From NCBI GenBank assembly GCA_009786125.1, contig WQTU01000132.1:1-45430 (forward strand): DNA of 45,430 nt. Reading direction: 5' to 3'. Below the pieces are notes generated by a model. The model worked only from the letters and a program-made list of their open reading frames with translations, made no database searches and had not been told where the DNA came from. Positions 1,335 through 38,115 of the stretch are shown here, one piece after another. This stretch comes from Spirochaetota bacterium. GTDB taxonomy: Bacteria; Spirochaetota; Spirochaetia; CADAEX01. The position numbers were made by a program, and so were the translations under genes. Within the stretch, counting starts at the first letter, position 1; each line of letters opens with the position of its first letter.

Positions 1335-2633
1335 ATGAAACGATTTGCCTACTCAAACCTGTTAAAGTGGAAAAACTCTCCAAAACGCAAGCCTCTTATC
1401 CTTTACGGAGCCAGGCAGGTGGGCAAGACTTGGTTGTTAAAAGAATTCGGCAAAAACGAATACAAGTCCATGATGTATCTTAATTTTGATACAAACCGGA
1501 AACTGCACAATTACTTTGGGGATGATATTTCTCCCAAAACCATTATCACGAGTCTGGAGAATCATTTCCAAGAAAAAATATCGCTCGCAGATACGTTGCT
1601 GATTTTTGATGAAATTCAGGAGTGCCAGAGGGCAAAAGACAGCCTTAAGTATTTTTGCGAGGATGCTCCGGCGTATAACATAGCTGCTGCCGGAAGTTTT
1701 CTTGGTATTGCCGGGGGCAAGTTTCCGGTCGGGCAAGTGAATGAAATTGTTCTTTATCCTTTATCATTCTATGAATTTTTAAACGCTATAGGACAAGAAC
1801 AGCTTGTTAATATCATCCATGACCAGGATACGAAGCTTATCAAAAATATGCATGGGCTTCTGATTGATAAGTTAAAAGAATATTTCTATGTTGGCGGTAT
1901 GCCCGAAGTTGTGAAGAGTTATGCAGATGCGAATGATTTGCAGGCTGTGCGCGAGGTGCAGAAAACCATACTCAATAACTACACAGCAGATTTTTCCAAG
2001 CACATAAAAGGTGTAGATATACCTAAGGTTCGTATGCTGTGGGACTCAATGCCGGCCCATCTTTCTAAAGAAAAAAAGAAATTCATCTATAAAGAAGTCA
2101 AAATCGGAGGTCGGGCAAAAGAGTTTGAAAATGCAATGGACTGGTTGGTGAATACAGGTCTGGTCTATAAAATTGCCAAAACTACAGAGTCCAAGCTTCC
2201 TTTGGTGAGTTATGCGGAGCGCGAGTCGTTCAAGTTGTATATGCTTGATGTAGGACTGCTGGCAGCAAAGTCAGGACTTGATATAAAGACATTCTATCAA
2301 CCTAATCACGAAGTTTTTAAGGAATTTAAAGGCGCTATTGCAGAGCAATATGTGGTGCAGGAATTGAATACTTTTGGTGGGCTGCCTATATTTTATTGGG
2401 GGAGTGCAACAGGCAAGGCAGAAGTGGATTTCGTCTTACAATACAATAACGAAATTGTGCCTGTTGAGGTTAAGTCTGATTTGAATAAAAAGTCCTATAG
2501 TCTGAATGTTTATATGGAAGCATATAAGCCTAAACAGGCAATTCGTACATCGCTTAACCACTTTGGAGCAGATGCTGGGCTATATTCCATACCCCTTTAT
2601 ATGATTGCAAGTTTGAGGGATGTGCTTTTGTAG
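1335..2633 (+). CDS. AAA-type ATPase with DUF4143 (COG1373-like)
   Basis: The protein of about 432 residues starts MKRFAYSNLLKWK and has a Walker A motif GARQVGKT shortly after the N-terminus. A Walker B-like LLIFDEIQEC follows, and then a C-terminal part with VDFVLQYNNEIVPVEVKS that resembles the nuclease-like (PD-D/ExK-like) half of DUF4143 ATPases. This family is widespread and multi-copy in anaerobes; its function is poorly known and it is often treated as a mobile or defence-linked ATPase. I chose ATG 1335 over an upstream TTG because the family begins near this point and AGG precedes it by six bases. Two tandem palindromes lie upstream, and a family E hairpin begins two bases after the stop. 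Confidence 0.85.
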   Translation: MKRFAYSNLLKWKNSPKRKPLILYGARQVGKTWLLKEFGKNEYKSMMYLNFDTNRKLHNYFGDDISPKTIITSLENHFQEKISLADTLLIFDEIQECQRAKDSLKYFCEDAPAYNIAAAGSFLGIAGGKFPVGQVNEIVLYPLSFYEFLNAIGQEQLVNIIHDQDTKLIKNMHGLLIDKLKEYFYVGGMPEVVKSYADANDLQAVREVQKTILNNYTADFSKHIKGVDIPKVRMLWDSMPAHLSKEKKKFIYKEVKIGGRAKEFENAMDWLVNTGLVYKIAKTTESKLPLVSYAERESFKLYMLDVGLLAAKSGLDIKTFYQPNHEVFKEFKGAIAEQYVVQELNTFGGLPIFYWGSATGKAEVDFVLQYNNEIVPVEVKSDLNKKSYSLNVYMEAYKPKQAIRTSLNHFGADAGLYSIPLYMIASLRDVLL

Positions 2634-2635
2634 GG

Positions 2636-2670
2636 AAGCACTGATTAAATTTGACTCTAATCAGTGGTTT
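2636..2670. repeat. Family E hairpin, copy 1
   Basis: Left arm AAGCACTGATTA, loop AATTTGACTC, right arm TAATCAGTGGTTT with one mismatch. It lies between the convergent ATPase and deoC genes, so it may act as a shared terminator. The same element recurs at 3383, 26499 and 34662. Confidence 0.85.
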
Positions 2671-2694
2671 ACTAGCACCGCAGGCAGCATAACT

Positions 2695-3351: not shown

Positions 3352-3382
3352 AAAAAAACTCCAAAAAATGGGTTTTCGAGGC

Positions 3383-3416
3383 AAGCACTGATTAAATTTG
3401 ACTCTAATCAGTGCTT
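3383..3416. repeat. Family E hairpin, copy 2
   Basis: AAGCACTGATTA and TAATCAGTGCTT form a perfect 12-bp stem around the conserved loop AATTTGACTC. It lies upstream of deoC, so deoC is bracketed by two copies in the same orientation. Confidence 0.88.
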
Positions 3417-3579
3417 TAGCAAAAGTCAGTTTTAGTATAAATCAAAATCAGCAAAAAATGAACAAAATAACTGATTTTCCATCAAAATAATGTATAAGAC
3501 AGGATTTAATTAAAATGATATGATATTTATAAGAGATTGATTCATCTGAGAATGGGAAAAAAACTGTTGAGGATAGAAA

Positions 3580-5561: not shown

Positions 5562-6911
5562 TTGAAAATTCTTTTGATAACAACAGGCGGAACTATTGTC
5601 TCGGAAAAAGGCTTGGATGGGGAAGGGCTTGCTCCTTCGAAAAATGGCGCCGCGCTGTTTGAAAAACTTTTTGAGGCTTCCGGAATTAATGGGCAGCAAA
5701 GTATTCCCGGAAGCGAAGCCCGACGCAAGTTGGGAAACCTTCGCTCGCCAAGCTCGGTTTGCCGGGAAATGGCGGAAATCGAGATTTGCTCTCTTTTTCT
5801 AAAAGACAGTTCCAATATAAATCCCGATGACTGGATTTTAATAATAAAAAAAATATTCGAAAATAAAGATCTGTTTGACGGGTTTATAATTACTCACGGC
5901 ACAGATACTATGGCTTATACTTCATCTATTCTTTCGTATGTTTTGGGCGCTCTTGAAAAGCCTGTAATATTAACAGGCTCTATGATTCCTGCAACATGGA
6001 CGTTGCGCTCAGCGCCGCGGCACGGATGTTATTATCCCGGACTTGTTACGGGGCGCAAAACGTGCAAAGCACGCGCAAAGCGAGCGCCGGCTGCTTCGCA
6101 TCCGGAAAGCGATGCAAAGTATAATCTTGTAAACTCATTTAAATTTATGCGTGTTTTAATCGAGAAAGGGCAGGGCGGTGTTTCAATATGCTTTAATGGG
6201 AAATTAATGCACGGCACAAGGGTAAAAAAAATTGACTCTGCAACATGGATGCTGCGTCCCTGCGCAGCGGCACGCGAATGTGCGCAGCAAAACGTGCAAA
6301 GCACGAGCAAAGCGAGTGCCGGGGCTGCGGCTGGAGATGCATTTGTGTCTGTTTCATACGATGATATTGGAGTTGTAACTAGCGGAAATGCAGAAATTAC
6401 GGCAGCGCCTTTTATAGACAAAGTTGGATTGGCTCGTTTTGGAGAAAGTTTTTCGTTCAATACAATAGATAGCATCAGGTTTGAAAGAAACATTATTTCG
6501 CTAAAACTTTTTCCCGGATTTTCTGCAGATTATTTTGGCAAAATACTTGACATTAAACCATTGGCAATTATTATAGAATCCTTTGGTGCAGGCGGGCTTC
6601 CGTTTATGGGGGAGAATCTGCTGCCAATGGTTGAGCAGGCACAATTGCTGGATATTATTGTTGTGGTTTCGGCACAGTGCCTCAAGGGCGGGGTTGACCT
6701 CTCGCTTTATGAGGTTGGGCAAAGGGCTGCGGAAGCCGGAGCTGTAAGTGCACATGACATGACGTATGAGGCGGCGGTTACTAAATTAATGTGGCTGCTT
6801 GCGCAGGTGCCGGCAAAAAAAGCAAAAGAATTGTTTGTGCATAACTTTTGCGATGAGCTTAGCTTGCCAAAATTCAGTGATTGCCGAGAAGGGCATACGG
6901 GGTGTGTGTGA
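5562..6911 (+). CDS. ansA: L-asparaginase with three in-frame repeat insertions
   Basis: The enzyme hydrolyses asparagine to aspartate and ammonia. Catalytic motifs are present: TTGGTI (residues 7-12), ITHGTDTM (Thr111, Asp115) and GTRVKKIDS with the expected catalytic Lys. The protein has 449 residues, about 100 more than usual type I enzymes. The excess sits in three blocks: roughly residues 48-70 (DNA 5703-5770, bounded by ATTCCCGG and CCGGGAAAT), 144-182 (5991-6107) and 227-258 (6240-6335). The second and third blocks begin with nearly the same DNA, GCAACATGGAYGYTGCG, share a later AACGTGCAAAGCACG core, and are 117 and 96 bp long, so the frame is kept. Conserved family sequence resumes exactly after each (SDAKYNLVN, DAFVSVSY). 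I chose TTG 5562 because it gives the canonical MKILLITTGGT start; a Shine-Dalgarno is weak. Confidence 0.9.
   Translation: MKILLITTGGTIVSEKGLDGEGLAPSKNGAALFEKLFEASGINGQQSIPGSEARRKLGNLRSPSSVCREMAEIEICSLFLKDSSNINPDDWILIIKKIFENKDLFDGFIITHGTDTMAYTSSILSYVLGALEKPVILTGSMIPATWTLRSAPRHGCYYPGLVTGRKTCKARAKRAPAASHPESDAKYNLVNSFKFMRVLIEKGQGGVSICFNGKLMHGTRVKKIDSATWMLRPCAAARECAQQNVQSTSKASAGAAAGDAFVSVSYDDIGVVTSGNAEITAAPFIDKVGLARFGESFSFNTIDSIRFERNIISLKLFPGFSADYFGKILDIKPLAIIIESFGAGGLPFMGENLLPMVEQAQLLDIIVVVSAQCLKGGVDLSLYEVGQRAAEAGAVSAHDMTYEAAVTKLMWLLAQVPAKKAKELFVHNFCDELSLPKFSDCREGHTGCV
5703..5770 (+). repeat. In-frame palindromic insertion in the asparaginase gene (block 1)
   Basis: The segment starts ATTCCCGG and ends CCGGGAAAT, an inverted pair, and codes for an Arg/Ser/Pro-rich stretch not expected in asparaginases. 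Its right half (GGAAACCTTCGC...TTTGCCGGGAAAT) resembles the DNA coding for the tail of the BrnA antitoxin at 9929-9962. Confidence 0.6.
5991..6107 (+). repeat. Family B/C element inside the asparaginase gene, copy 1
   Basis: A GC-rich 117-bp block begins GCAACATGGACGTTGCG, continues with GCGGCACGGATGTT (an imperfect inverted partner of the start) and later AAAACGTGCAAAGCACG. It encodes residues 144-182, between TGSMIP and SDAKYNL, which normally lie a few residues apart. Confidence 0.8.
6240..6335 (+). repeat. Family B/C element inside the asparaginase gene, copy 2
   Basis: A 96-bp block begins GCAACATGGATGCTGCG and carries GCAGCGGCACG and AAAACGTGCAAAGCACGAGC. It encodes residues 227-258 just after the catalytic GTRVKKIDS segment. 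It shares its start and core with the block at 5991. Confidence 0.8.
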
Positions 6912-25256: not shown

Positions 25257-26498
25257 ATGAAAAAACTAATATCACTTACAATAGTGATTTTTATGACAGC
25301 GGCAATTCTATTCGCGGGCGGAATAGAAAACAATGTCAACTTTAACGCATGGTATCTTATGAATCCAAGCAGAAATACAGAAGCGAATAGAGCAGATGCT
25401 GTTTTCTACAATCCGGCAGGAACTGCTTTTATGCAAGATGGGCTTTATCTTGGCATTGGTAACCAATTTATATTAAAGAATTATAAACATACAATAACGG
25501 ACGCAGGGATATTAGCGCCGCTTGCCGGCAGAAGTTTTAATTCGGATAACCCGGTTTTGCTCTACCCAAATGCGCATCTTGTTTTTAAGAGAGATAATTA
25601 TGCGCTTTTTGCTGCTTTTGGTGTTTTTGGCGGCGGCGGCAGTCTTGAATTTAATGATGGAACATATCTTTCAAATGCAATGTTAGCTATGGGAGGAGGA
25701 CTTCATGACCACTCTTTTGATCTCTTTTCTGTTACACTTGGGCAAATATTTGGAGCATCTGTCAAAATTAACGATATGATATCTGTTGCTGCAGCAGTAA
25801 GGTTTATACAGAGCAGACAAACCCTTGAAGCAACCAGCACTGGCGCTTCTTCGGGCAATTTATTAAGAGCAGAAGCTTCGGGGAATGGCGTTAGCGGTAT
25901 TTTGGGTGTGCATTTTAGACCAATAGACAGGCTTGATCTCTCTGCAACTTACCAGACAATAACAAGAATACAGCTTGAATACACCAGGGTTGATGGCTCG
26001 CTTGCGTTTATGGCTGATGGTTTTGGTATAAAAAAAGGTAATAAAACCAGTGCTAATCTTCCGGCTGTTCTTGGGCTTGGAGTTGGATACAGAATACTTG
26101 AGAATCTTTATGCAAGTTTGAGCTTTAATTATTACTATAATAAACAAGCAGACCTTATTAGTATGTTAGGTACTCCATACAAAGATTCATGGGAAATTGC
26201 AGCAGGTGTAGATTATGATTTTTCTGATATATTCTCTTTTAGCCTTGGCACTCTTTTTACAAGACATGGAATAAGCAAAACAGCCAATATGCCGGAAGCT
26301 CCGAATCTTAATAGCTTTTCAATAGCTGCAGGAACTTCTATTAGACCAATTCAAGACCTTACTATAGATATTGCAGCATTTAAACCTTTTTTTTCTAGAG
26401 ATAAATTTGAAACATCTGTTGGACCTGCTAACTTGGGAATGGACCTTGAGAGAACTATGATTGTTTTTGGCATCGGAGTTACTTACAAAATATTCTAA
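25257..26498 (+). CDS. FadL/OmpP1/TodX-type outer-membrane transport protein
   Basis: The protein of about 413 residues has a signal peptide ending near ILFAGG and the family hallmark FYNPAGTAFM, followed by a repeated amphipathic beta-strand pattern to a final aromatic strand (GVTYKIF). FadL channels take up long-chain fatty acids or hydrophobic compounds across the outer membrane. ATG 25257 has a strong AAGGAGG; an ATG eight codons earlier lies within the leader hairpin. A good promoter is present. A MITE-like repeat begins right after the stop codon. Confidence 0.88.
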   Translation: MKKLISLTIVIFMTAAILFAGGIENNVNFNAWYLMNPSRNTEANRADAVFYNPAGTAFMQDGLYLGIGNQFILKNYKHTITDAGILAPLAGRSFNSDNPVLLYPNAHLVFKRDNYALFAAFGVFGGGGSLEFNDGTYLSNAMLAMGGGLHDHSFDLFSVTLGQIFGASVKINDMISVAAAVRFIQSRQTLEATSTGASSGNLLRAEASGNGVSGILGVHFRPIDRLDLSATYQTITRIQLEYTRVDGSLAFMADGFGIKKGNKTSANLPAVLGLGVGYRILENLYASLSFNYYYNKQADLISMLGTPYKDSWEIAAGVDYDFSDIFSFSLGTLFTRHGISKTANMPEAPNLNSFSIAAGTSIRPIQDLTIDIAAFKPFFSRDKFETSVGPANLGMDLERTMIVFGIGVTYKIF

Positions 26499-26632
26499 GG
26501 AATCGCTGATTAAATTTGACTCTAATCAGCGATTCCATGATTTTTCCTCGTTTCCCTTTGGAAAACTGCGAAAAAATGATAATAATGTATTGCTGATTTA
26601 TTCTCGATTGAATAAATCAGCGGTTTCCTAAA
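26499..26632. mobile_element. MITE-like element, E and F ends, copy 1
   Basis: The left end is the family E hairpin (GGAATCGCTGATTA with TAATCAGCGATTCC, a perfect 14-bp stem, loop AATTTGACTC). The right end is the family F hairpin GCTGATTTATTC / GAATAAATCAGC followed by GGTTTCC. The outer ends are inverted to each other (GGAA..CGCTGATT), and TAA occurs on both sides, as in a target duplication. No coding capacity. A related longer copy lies at 34662-34913. Confidence 0.65.
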
Positions 26633-30227: not shown

Positions 30228-30349
30228 TTTAACTCTCCTATACCTTTGTTGTGTTTACCTATCTTAACAACTGAAGTGTGAAGATAATGTGAAGATGATA
30301 TATGATTTCAAAGGTGTTTTAGAAAAATTTAATGAATTAAAACATTTAT

Positions 30350-30500
30350 TTCCGAATGAAGCGAGGGTCGCGACGTGCTTGCACGCACATCCGCCGAATA
30401 AGTGAGAGTCGCGGGCGTGCTTGCACGCACATGACCGAACGATGAGGTGGACAAAGGAGCTATGCTCCTTATGTACCGAGCGAATGAGGAAACAAAGGGT
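30350..30500 (+). repeat. Family A repeat, copy 4
   Basis: Begins ATTTCCGAATGAAGCGAG and includes GTGCTTGCACGCACATCC, GTGCTTGCACGCACATGACC and GGAGCTATGCTCC. It contains two half-copies in tandem. The region between the secreted protein and the YdbC-like gene (30228-30583) holds nothing else I can name. Confidence 0.88.
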
Positions 30501-30583
30501 ATAATACTCTTTATTTTTATTTATATTTGGGATATAGTTGAGTATAAACGTTTTGACTTGGAGTTTTAAGGAGCTTTTTGACA

Positions 30584-34113: not shown

Positions 34114-34184
34114 CTTTGTTAACAAAAAAATAGTTTAAAATACCTTTGAAAAACCAATTATTTGATTTTTTTAAAACACAGCAA

Positions 34185-34634
34185 CTATGCCTTTGGCGCA
34201 GCTGGTTTCTTGGCAGCAGGCTTTTTAGCAGCAGTTGGCTTCTTGGCAGCCGGAGCTTTAGCAGCAGCTGACTTCTTGGTAGCCGGAGCTTTAGCAGCAG
34301 TTGGTTTCTTGGCAGCCGGAGCTTTAGCAACAGTTGGCTTCTTGGCAGCCGGAGCTTTAGCAACAGTTGGCTTCTTGGCAGCCGGAGCTTTAGCAACAGC
34401 TGGTTTCTTGGCAGCCGGAGCTTTAGCAACAGTTGGCTTCTTGGCAGCCGGAGCTTTAGCAACAGTTGGTTTCTTGGTAGCCGGAACTTTAGCAGCAGTT
34501 GGTTTTTCTGTAGTTTCTTTGTCGTTTGTCACCGGGGTCTCCTCCTTTATGTTTTCTGGCAACATAGTTTTGTTTTTGTTTATAATTTTCTTGAAATACT
34601 TTCTCAAGACAATAAACAGATTCATTATAAACAA
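34185..34634 (-). CDS. Lys/Ala/Pro-rich repeat protein, histone H1-like tail
   Basis: The 149-residue protein has a short hydrophobic/basic N-terminus (MNLFIVLRKYFKKII), an acidic linker (NIKEETPVTNDKETTEKP) and then about ten copies of an 11-residue unit, KAPAAKKPTVA, encoded by a 33-bp tandem repeat. Such tails resemble bacterial H1-like DNA-binding proteins. The start is TTG 34634 with AAGGAG seven bases upstream, and a start at ATG 34625 is also possible. The repeat can expand or contract without breaking frame. Homologous antisense ORFs are not real. Confidence 0.75.
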   Translation of the reverse strand: MFIMNLFIVLRKYFKKIINKNKTMLPENIKEETPVTNDKETTEKPTAAKVPATKKPTVAKAPAAKKPTVAKAPAAKKPAVAKAPAAKKPTVAKAPAAKKPTVAKAPAAKKPTAAKAPATKKSAAAKAPAAKKPTAAKKPAAKKPAAPKA

Positions 34635-34661
34635 ATTTTACTCCTTCTTTAATATATTAAG

Positions 34662-34913
34662 GGAAGCACTGATTAAATTTGACTCTAATTAGTGCTTCCA
34701 CATTTTTTCGCAGTTTTCTTGCAGAAAACTACGAAAAAAGGATATCGCAGCAAAGCTGCGTTTCCTTATTCGCTCGGTAATGTGCGTGCAAGCACGCCCG
34801 GGCCGTAAGTCTACCGCCCGACACTCGCTTCATTCGGAAACAAGGTATTGTAGCCCCGAATAAGTTCGGGATGCTGCGCAATTTATTCTTGATTGAATAA
34901 ATCAGCGATTCCT
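34662..34913. mobile_element. MITE-like element, copy 2, carrying a family A repeat
   Basis: Left end: GGAAGCACTGATTA with TAATTAGTGCTTCC around AATTTGACTC. Right end: ATTTATTC / GAATAAAT followed by CAGCGATTCC. The ends are inverted to each other, with TAAG on both sides. The middle holds a palindrome (CGCAGTTTTC / GAAAACTACG) and an antisense family A repeat at 34746-34843. No coding capacity; the remainder to 34994 is AT-rich. Confidence 0.65.
34746..34843 (-). repeat. Family A repeat, copy 5, inside the MITE-like element
   Basis: Read on the minus strand it begins TTTCCGAATGAAGCGAG, passes GGGCGTGCTTGCACGCACAT and ends ACCGAGCGAATAAGGAAACG, like 30351-30495 with the middle shortened. Confidence 0.83.
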
Positions 34914-37070: not shown

Positions 37071-37946
37071 GTGAGAAAAGTGTTGAAAAAAAATAAACAG
37101 AATGGCGCAGAAAGATTTAATAATTATTATGAATCAATTTATGGCGCAAGGTGGGAAGAATTAAAAAAATCATTTGTGCAAAAGCCTGATTATTTTGAAA
37201 TAAAGGGTAAGCAGAGCTGCACGCCGCGACTCTCGCTTCATTCGGAAATAAATAACGGATTGCTTGCACCGTACTATATTGATAGAGCCTCTCTTTTTCC
37301 TGTTAAAGCGCTGGACATTATTCCGGGGCACAATGTTCTTGATATGTGCGCTGCGCCTGGCGGAAAAACTTTGCTTATAACGCTTGCTGCCGGAGAATCG
37401 GGCGCTGTTACGGCAAATGACAGGTCTGCTGCCAGGCGGGCGCGCCTTGTGTCTGTGCTTGATGTTTCGCTTCCTGCGGAATTGCGCAAAGTTGTGAAAC
37501 TAACAGGGCACGATGCTTCTCTTTGGGGTGTATATGAAAAGAATGTGTACGACAGAATATTGCTGGATGCTCCATGTTCTTCGGAGAGGCATGTATATAT
37601 GTCTGAGTTTCATCTAAAGCAGTGGACTCCTTCGCGGATAAAGCAGCTTGCATCAAGGCAATTTGCAATGCTCGCAGCAGCGCTCGATGCTGTGAAACCT
37701 TTGGGAAAAATCGTTTACTCTACTTGTTCTATTTCCCGCGAAGAAAATGACGGAATTATCGAAAAGCTTTTTAAAAAGCGAAAAGGGCTTTTTGAAGTTG
37801 AGTCCATTGAAAGCAGGGATGAAATATTTGGTTCTGAAATCGAAGCAGAAAAAACTGAATTTGGGTACTATATTATGCCTGATAGAAACAATGGCGCAGG
37901 TCCAATATTCTTTGCTGTTATTGTCAAATTATCTGCAGGCGGCTGA
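37071..37946 (+). CDS. RsmB/NSUN-type RNA m5C methyltransferase
   Basis: The 291-residue protein has the SAM site NVLDMCAAPGGKTLLI, the motif LLDAPCSSERHVY and the catalytic Cys region KIVYSTCSISREENDGII, as in RNA 5-methylcytosine methyltransferases. It is short, without the NusB-like domain of RsmB. Bases 37219-37249 inside the gene match a family A repeat (29 of 31 bases, antisense), encoding CTPRLSLHSEI near residues 50-60, so this stretch is probably repeat-derived. The start is GTG 37071 with a weak ribosome site; a TTG about 9-12 bases later is possible. Confidence 0.88.
   Translation: MRKVLKKNKQNGAERFNNYYESIYGARWEELKKSFVQKPDYFEIKGKQSCTPRLSLHSEINNGLLAPYYIDRASLFPVKALDIIPGHNVLDMCAAPGGKTLLITLAAGESGAVTANDRSAARRARLVSVLDVSLPAELRKVVKLTGHDASLWGVYEKNVYDRILLDAPCSSERHVYMSEFHLKQWTPSRIKQLASRQFAMLAAALDAVKPLGKIVYSTCSISREENDGIIEKLFKKRKGLFEVESIESRDEIFGSEIEAEKTEFGYYIMPDRNNGAGPIFFAVIVKLSAGG
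37219..37249 (-). repeat. Family A fragment inside the methyltransferase gene
   Basis: GCACGCCGCGAC and CTCGCTTCATTCGGAAAT match the antisense of 30350-30380 at 29 of 31 bases. It stays in frame. Confidence 0.75.
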
Positions 37947-37975: not shown

Positions 37976-38115
37976 AAAAAAATATTGAAATAACCGCAAA
38001 TTTATTAAAAAATTTATAAAAAATATTGAAATAATCGCAAATTTATTAAAAAATTTATAAAAAATATTGAAATAATCGCAAATTTATTAAAAAATTTATA
38101 AAAAATATTGAACAT
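37976..38115. repeat. 41-bp tandem repeat, three copies and a partial fourth
   Basis: The unit (TATTGAAATAATCGCAAATT, then TATTAAAAAATTTATAAAAA) begins at 37983, 38024, 38065 and, partly, 38106; the first copy differs by one base. Each unit contains TTGAAA, a -35-like sequence, and the last partial one leads into a likely promoter of the LysM lipoprotein. Confidence 0.93.

Follow-up and report, generated by a model that had tools for sequence, protein, structure and literature searches.

The methyltransferase gene and its insert

The stretch of DNA analysed here (the window; 45,430 nucleotides of a Spirochaetota bacterium) carries at 37071..37946 (+) a gene for an RNA cytosine methyltransferase of the RsmB/F kind (NOL1/NOP2/Sun, NSUN4-like), the product of which matches Pfam family PF01189 with an E of 1.8e-32 and contains an insert. 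The reading frame of 291 codons is open throughout, and the protein keeps the residues that are invariant across a 12-sequence alignment, C169 and C219 among them. Its best solved structural relative is NSUN4 (E 1.7e-34), in an alignment that begins at residue 63, directly past the insert; a single-sequence structure model of the protein was unusable (pLDDT 32.6). Immediately 3' of the gene there is a three-fold, AT-rich tandem repeat of 41 bp (37977-38112).

The insert is a complete short copy of a repeat element, 48 bp long, at 37200..37247 (-), which adds 16 residues to the protein and which we delimited by orthologues without it, by the congener sequence that its removal leaves and by the two ends of the family. 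Both the family start, TTCCGAATGAAGCGAG, and the family end, ACCCTTTAT, are present on it, and in the element's orientation it reads TTCCGAATGAAGCGAG...CTTACCCTTTAT. On the element strand it adjoins a TTAT target (37248..37251, -), identified from the sequence and the empty sites of congeners, and is closed by a second TTAT (37200-37203). Repeat search of the window gave a stretch of 35 nt (37219..37253, -) in common with an intergenic copy at 30344-30378, at 94%. The original prediction for this locus had described a 31-bp antisense match to an intergenic repeat at 30350-30380 and had taken it for a fragment of that repeat. The match is real (29/31 bases agree) and the protein reads as had been described, with the residues named and the frame kept, but the true partner lies two bases away at 30348-30378 (ungapped, only 8/31 bases agree with 30350-30380), and what had been called a fragment is actually the complete 48-bp short form with both family ends.

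The proposal of an insertion within the gene that keeps its frame is supported by the orthologues. Of 60 genomes searched with the methyltransferase, 42 had a match, a figure that counts the genome of the window itself, and we aligned 29 other loci, leaving out 12 further matching genomes; the 16-residue stretch, KGKQSCTPRLSLHSEI by one placing, is missing from 29/29 of the aligned orthologues. At the same site the DNA of one congener (G003) reads TTTTGAAATAAATAAAGG, and this genome minus 37200-37247 reads TTTTGAAATAAATAACGG. Deletion of these bases restores the congener sequence and, therefore, 48 bp went in. The best explanation is that the RsmB/F copy arrived after the lineage had split from its congeners.

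The repeat family and its copies in other genes

Copies of the family core lie in the window at 30350 (+), 34839 (-) and 37247 (-), and scanning with the 23-base core gave these three sites at <=3 mismatches versus 0 in 100 shuffles. The first belongs to a long intergenic copy of 165 bp with TTAT at its left (30350..30514, +; delimited by comparison of ends), whereas the second, found by the core scan (34817..34839, -; core with two mismatches), did not show the usual 3' end. A query of 91 bases, comprising the in-gene copy and its surroundings, matched 42 places in the 2.42-Mb genome; on this count and on that of the core scan we reject a chance match as the origin of the in-gene repeat. With a 95-base element there were 49 matches in this genome and 0 in three congeners, one of which is 58% complete. 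The count for the family is probably a lower bound, because several copies lie at contig ends (e.g., L071, L073, L074). When the GTDB collection (which may omit the window's own genome) was scanned with an exact 21-base pattern, the single match was in a Luteibacter; it lacks the family ends and appears chance-like. The exact family pattern had 0 matches in the viral_contigs set, and phage carriage was rejected; at gathering score, no Rfam family matched the window.

Complete copies, defined as having both ends within 200 bp, number 30 and are 48 to 190 bp long. By sequence, the element is GC-rich and its interior is modular. Inverted repeats between the element ends were not seen by eye, and in DNA folding the 54-nt in-gene form was no better than shuffles (z -0.46), while longer forms reached modest values only (z -1.60 and -1.97).

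Our survey of family copies overlapping genes, a check suggested with the original prediction, revealed antisense in-frame copies in seven further genes: copies or parts of copies in MutS2-, FolC-, RecF-, HflX-, phosphopantetheinyl-transferase- (PPTase) and DinB/Pol IV-like genes, and a further copy in a gene with a weak B12-methionine-synthase match. Using for each gene part of the loci matched, among which there were also other members of the protein family, we found the element missing from the aligned orthologues of MutS2 (5/5), FolC (5/5), DinB (5/5), HflX (3/3, the N-terminus of this protein being variable) and PPTase (5/5, all distant), and from the 4/4 RecF orthologues that cover the site, a fifth being partial. 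For the B12-like gene, 5/6 orthologues have no insert at the site and the sixth (G003) has a different tandem repeat. Because the congeners keep empty sites, there are before-and-after pairs for several of these proteins. The G003 repeat (L196), at the same place as the element of this genome, is a tandem array of DDVVGNQ units, and its reverse strand contains CGTCATCC, which is reminiscent of CGTC-tagged repeats.

TTAT precedes 37/47 copies versus 1.0% of window positions, and it flanks both sides in 22/30 complete copies. Counted by eye, congener orthologues have TTAT at the junction in 13/15 cases (RsmB/F 2/2, MutS2 2/3, RecF 1/2, HflX 3/3, DinB 3/3, B12-like 2/2), a count that omits the G003 B12-like gene because another repeat is there and FolC because the end of its copy, the usual 3' end, is truncated away. 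TTAT is the only sequence common to both flanks in the B12-like gene. The paired TTAT could represent either a 4-bp duplication or, if the element has a TTAT end of its own, insertion beside a fixed target.

The methyltransferase gene still reads through because the copy is antisense, 48 bp long and stop-free in the frame used, and the copies in the other genes, likewise antisense, open and frame-keeping, would have survived on the same grounds. The element frame containing HSE is read in 7/8 genes (RsmB/F counted), with PPTase reading another. Among complete copies, the GAA-anchored antisense frame is stop-free in 6/6 of those in genes versus 12/24 of the others; five of the six are read in that frame, while the remaining one uses a different frame that is also open. 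Length is divisible by three in 5/6 in-gene complete copies versus 8/24 others, and for RecF a one-base shift at the border restores the frame. A Fisher test of frame-keeping in the in-gene versus other copies gave 0.005 with RecF taken as in frame and 0.04 without it, although these frame tests are partly circular because an open frame through the copies was how in-gene copies were recognised.

Insertions in the sense direction can terminate a gene at once, since TTCCGAATGA gives a stop in one frame. The PanB gene and two other ORFs (L085, L040, L061) end in SE-stop from the start of a sense-oriented copy. Broken genes, sought by joining the flanks of complete copies, yielded no convincing case; the joined flanks at L040, L042 and L057 have a possible frame of 102-121 codons, none of which resembles a known gene by eye.

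Known repeat systems and competing readings

Excerpts of the published accounts of Rickettsia palindromic elements (RPEs) describe small repeats in frame in many unrelated conserved genes and also between genes (PMC2229807, PMC10969869, PMC3767692), report that the Rickettsia gmk product with an RPE is translated and active (PMC2229807, PMC10969869), and place RPE insertions at loci common to several Rickettsia orthologues (PMC3767692). As far as those excerpts go, the present family is like the RPEs in having in-frame insertions in conserved protein genes. It differs in that RPEs are 105-146 bp long versus 48 bp for the in-gene copy here (other complete copies vary widely), and in that the present element is TTAT-flanked, has ends that are not CGTC, and belongs to another genome with another sequence. 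Moreover, several Rickettsia orthologues, in the same excerpts, share insertions (PMC3767692), whereas the present element is missing from all congeners. The size of ~100-150 bp combined with a long stem-loop and terminal inverted repeat that defines RPEs is not seen in the present element, and the exact-pattern scan of the GTDB collection returned no Rickettsia records.

Intragenic GTAG- or CGTC-tagged REPs, according to the excerpted source, are palindromic and lie in coding regions, many of them in replication and repair genes, and CGTC repeats are reported there from Spirochaetes among other phyla (PMC3733652). The ends of the present element, TTCCGAATG and ACCCTTTAT, carry neither GTAG nor CGTC and, relative to the REPs of those excerpts, the elements are longer, modular and without a Y1 transposase gene in the genome. 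Y1_Tnp (PF01797), the sole transposase family searched, had 0 matches in this genome (G000), with 5/14 control genomes positive, so that the Y1 tyrosine transposase of RAYT and IS200-IS605-type systems was not found as a resident mover. Elements of the IS200-IS605 type insert on the 3' side of a short, fixed target and make no classical duplication. By comparison, TTAT precedes 37/47 of our copies, and the second TTAT, at the other end, could come from a 4-bp duplication or be the element's own end.

Bacterial MITEs (ERIC/RU-1 and the 107-bp Correia form), in the excerpt consulted, are small non-autonomous repeats with open frames that fuse in frame to host genes (PMC2229807). To that extent the present repeats, small, probably non-autonomous and with open frames joined to host genes, are similar, but inspection by eye showed no terminal inverted repeats on them, and a search of one transposase family, Y1, gave no parent insertion sequence. 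Titles and abstract openings, a partial coverage of the literature, contained no comparable in-frame coding repeat family for Treponema or other spirochaetes. The kind of repeat is, then, known from RPEs and intragenic REPs and the in-frame coding outcome is as in known systems, yet, going by the letters, the element's sequence, ends and target differ here.

How did such copies come to lie within genes that still read through? The explanation we favour, with a probability of roughly 0.86, is that a non-autonomous, modular, TTAT-adjoining element spread recently, that its insertion into the RsmB/F gene followed the split from congeners, and that copies which code in frame survive. The modular GC-rich element would have inserted beside TTAT, moved, we infer, by a transposase in trans; insertions breaking needed genes would be lost and open in-frame ones persist, and in the methyltransferase 16 residues would have been gained upstream of the catalytic domain. 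The insert peptide is presumably made and the methyltransferase presumably still works.

An alternative is that the enzyme lost its activity through the insertion, so that we are looking at a young pseudogene with a frame open by luck. The insertion is perhaps too recent for much decay to have followed, but the 291-codon open frame and the invariant residues kept argue otherwise, and the open-frame insertions in seven other genes are too frequent for luck alone, making this unlikely. Another reading is that the copy was retained for its usefulness, be it in regulation or in giving the protein a new surface, and the similar copies in several repair genes (MutS2, RecF, DinB) could be cited in its favor. 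We consider this quite improbable, as the host proteins are unrelated and the lengths variable, which is against one common role, and 24/30 of the complete copies examined are outside genes.

Could the segment be present in the DNA and later removed? Translational bypassing occurs in some yeast mitochondria, and a compact GC-rich segment with defined ends within several genes is what such bypassing, RNA splicing or protein splicing might act upon. However, the frame-keeping lengths and stop-free used frame would be unneeded if the segment were removed, and the one-base shift at the RecF border restores the frame, so that we regard removal as very improbable. Finally, the reading in which the 16 residues have long belonged to the protein and resemble the repeat by chance or convergence is rejected as having next to no probability, given that 0/29 aligned orthologues have the residues, that there are 42 genome matches and that the congener site is cleanly empty.

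Beyond recent spread with survival of in-frame copies, a broader proposal is possible but doubtful: that a recently active, one-species, TTAT-targeted element, open in antisense, streams in-frame peptides into MutS2, RecF, DinB and RsmB/F and is remodelling many core proteins at once. If true, the repair and RNA-modification proteins of one lineage would have been remodelled together by one element. The genome is well suited to tests of whether repeats inserted in frame do harm, bring a benefit or are neutral, which the excerpts on Rickettsia leave largely open.

Other repeats in the window and genome

An asparaginase gene in the window (5562-6911) has three extra in-frame stretches that are missing from 3/3 aligned orthologues. 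The first (5679..5768, +; about 28-30 aa), recognised as extra by its absence from the 3/3 orthologues, is a candidate repeat, while the others were delimited by repeat as well as orthologue comparison: the second (5991..6092, +; 34 aa) is a repeat module that is also inside long family copies and the third (6240..6326, +; about 29 aa) is a related module. The original prediction had counted the methyltransferase as a second gene hit by a different repeat family. That the gene is hit stands; the difference does not, if the asparaginase gene was the other gene meant, which is our guess: longer copies of the family found in the methyltransferase (family A) contain a block of this sequence, so that the asparaginase repeats share modules with that family.

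A separate palindromic repeat of the AAGCACTGATTAAATTTGACTCTAATCAGTGCTT type has four copies in the window (2626-2671, 3373-3418, 26491-26536 and 34654-34699). There are also 33-bp tandem repeats in eight registers at 34166-34538, inside an ORF (34162-34692) without a Pfam match. Elsewhere in the genome, a TilS-like gene (L225, 538-2271, -; PF01171 and PF11734) contains an in-frame repeat module at about residues 355-385.
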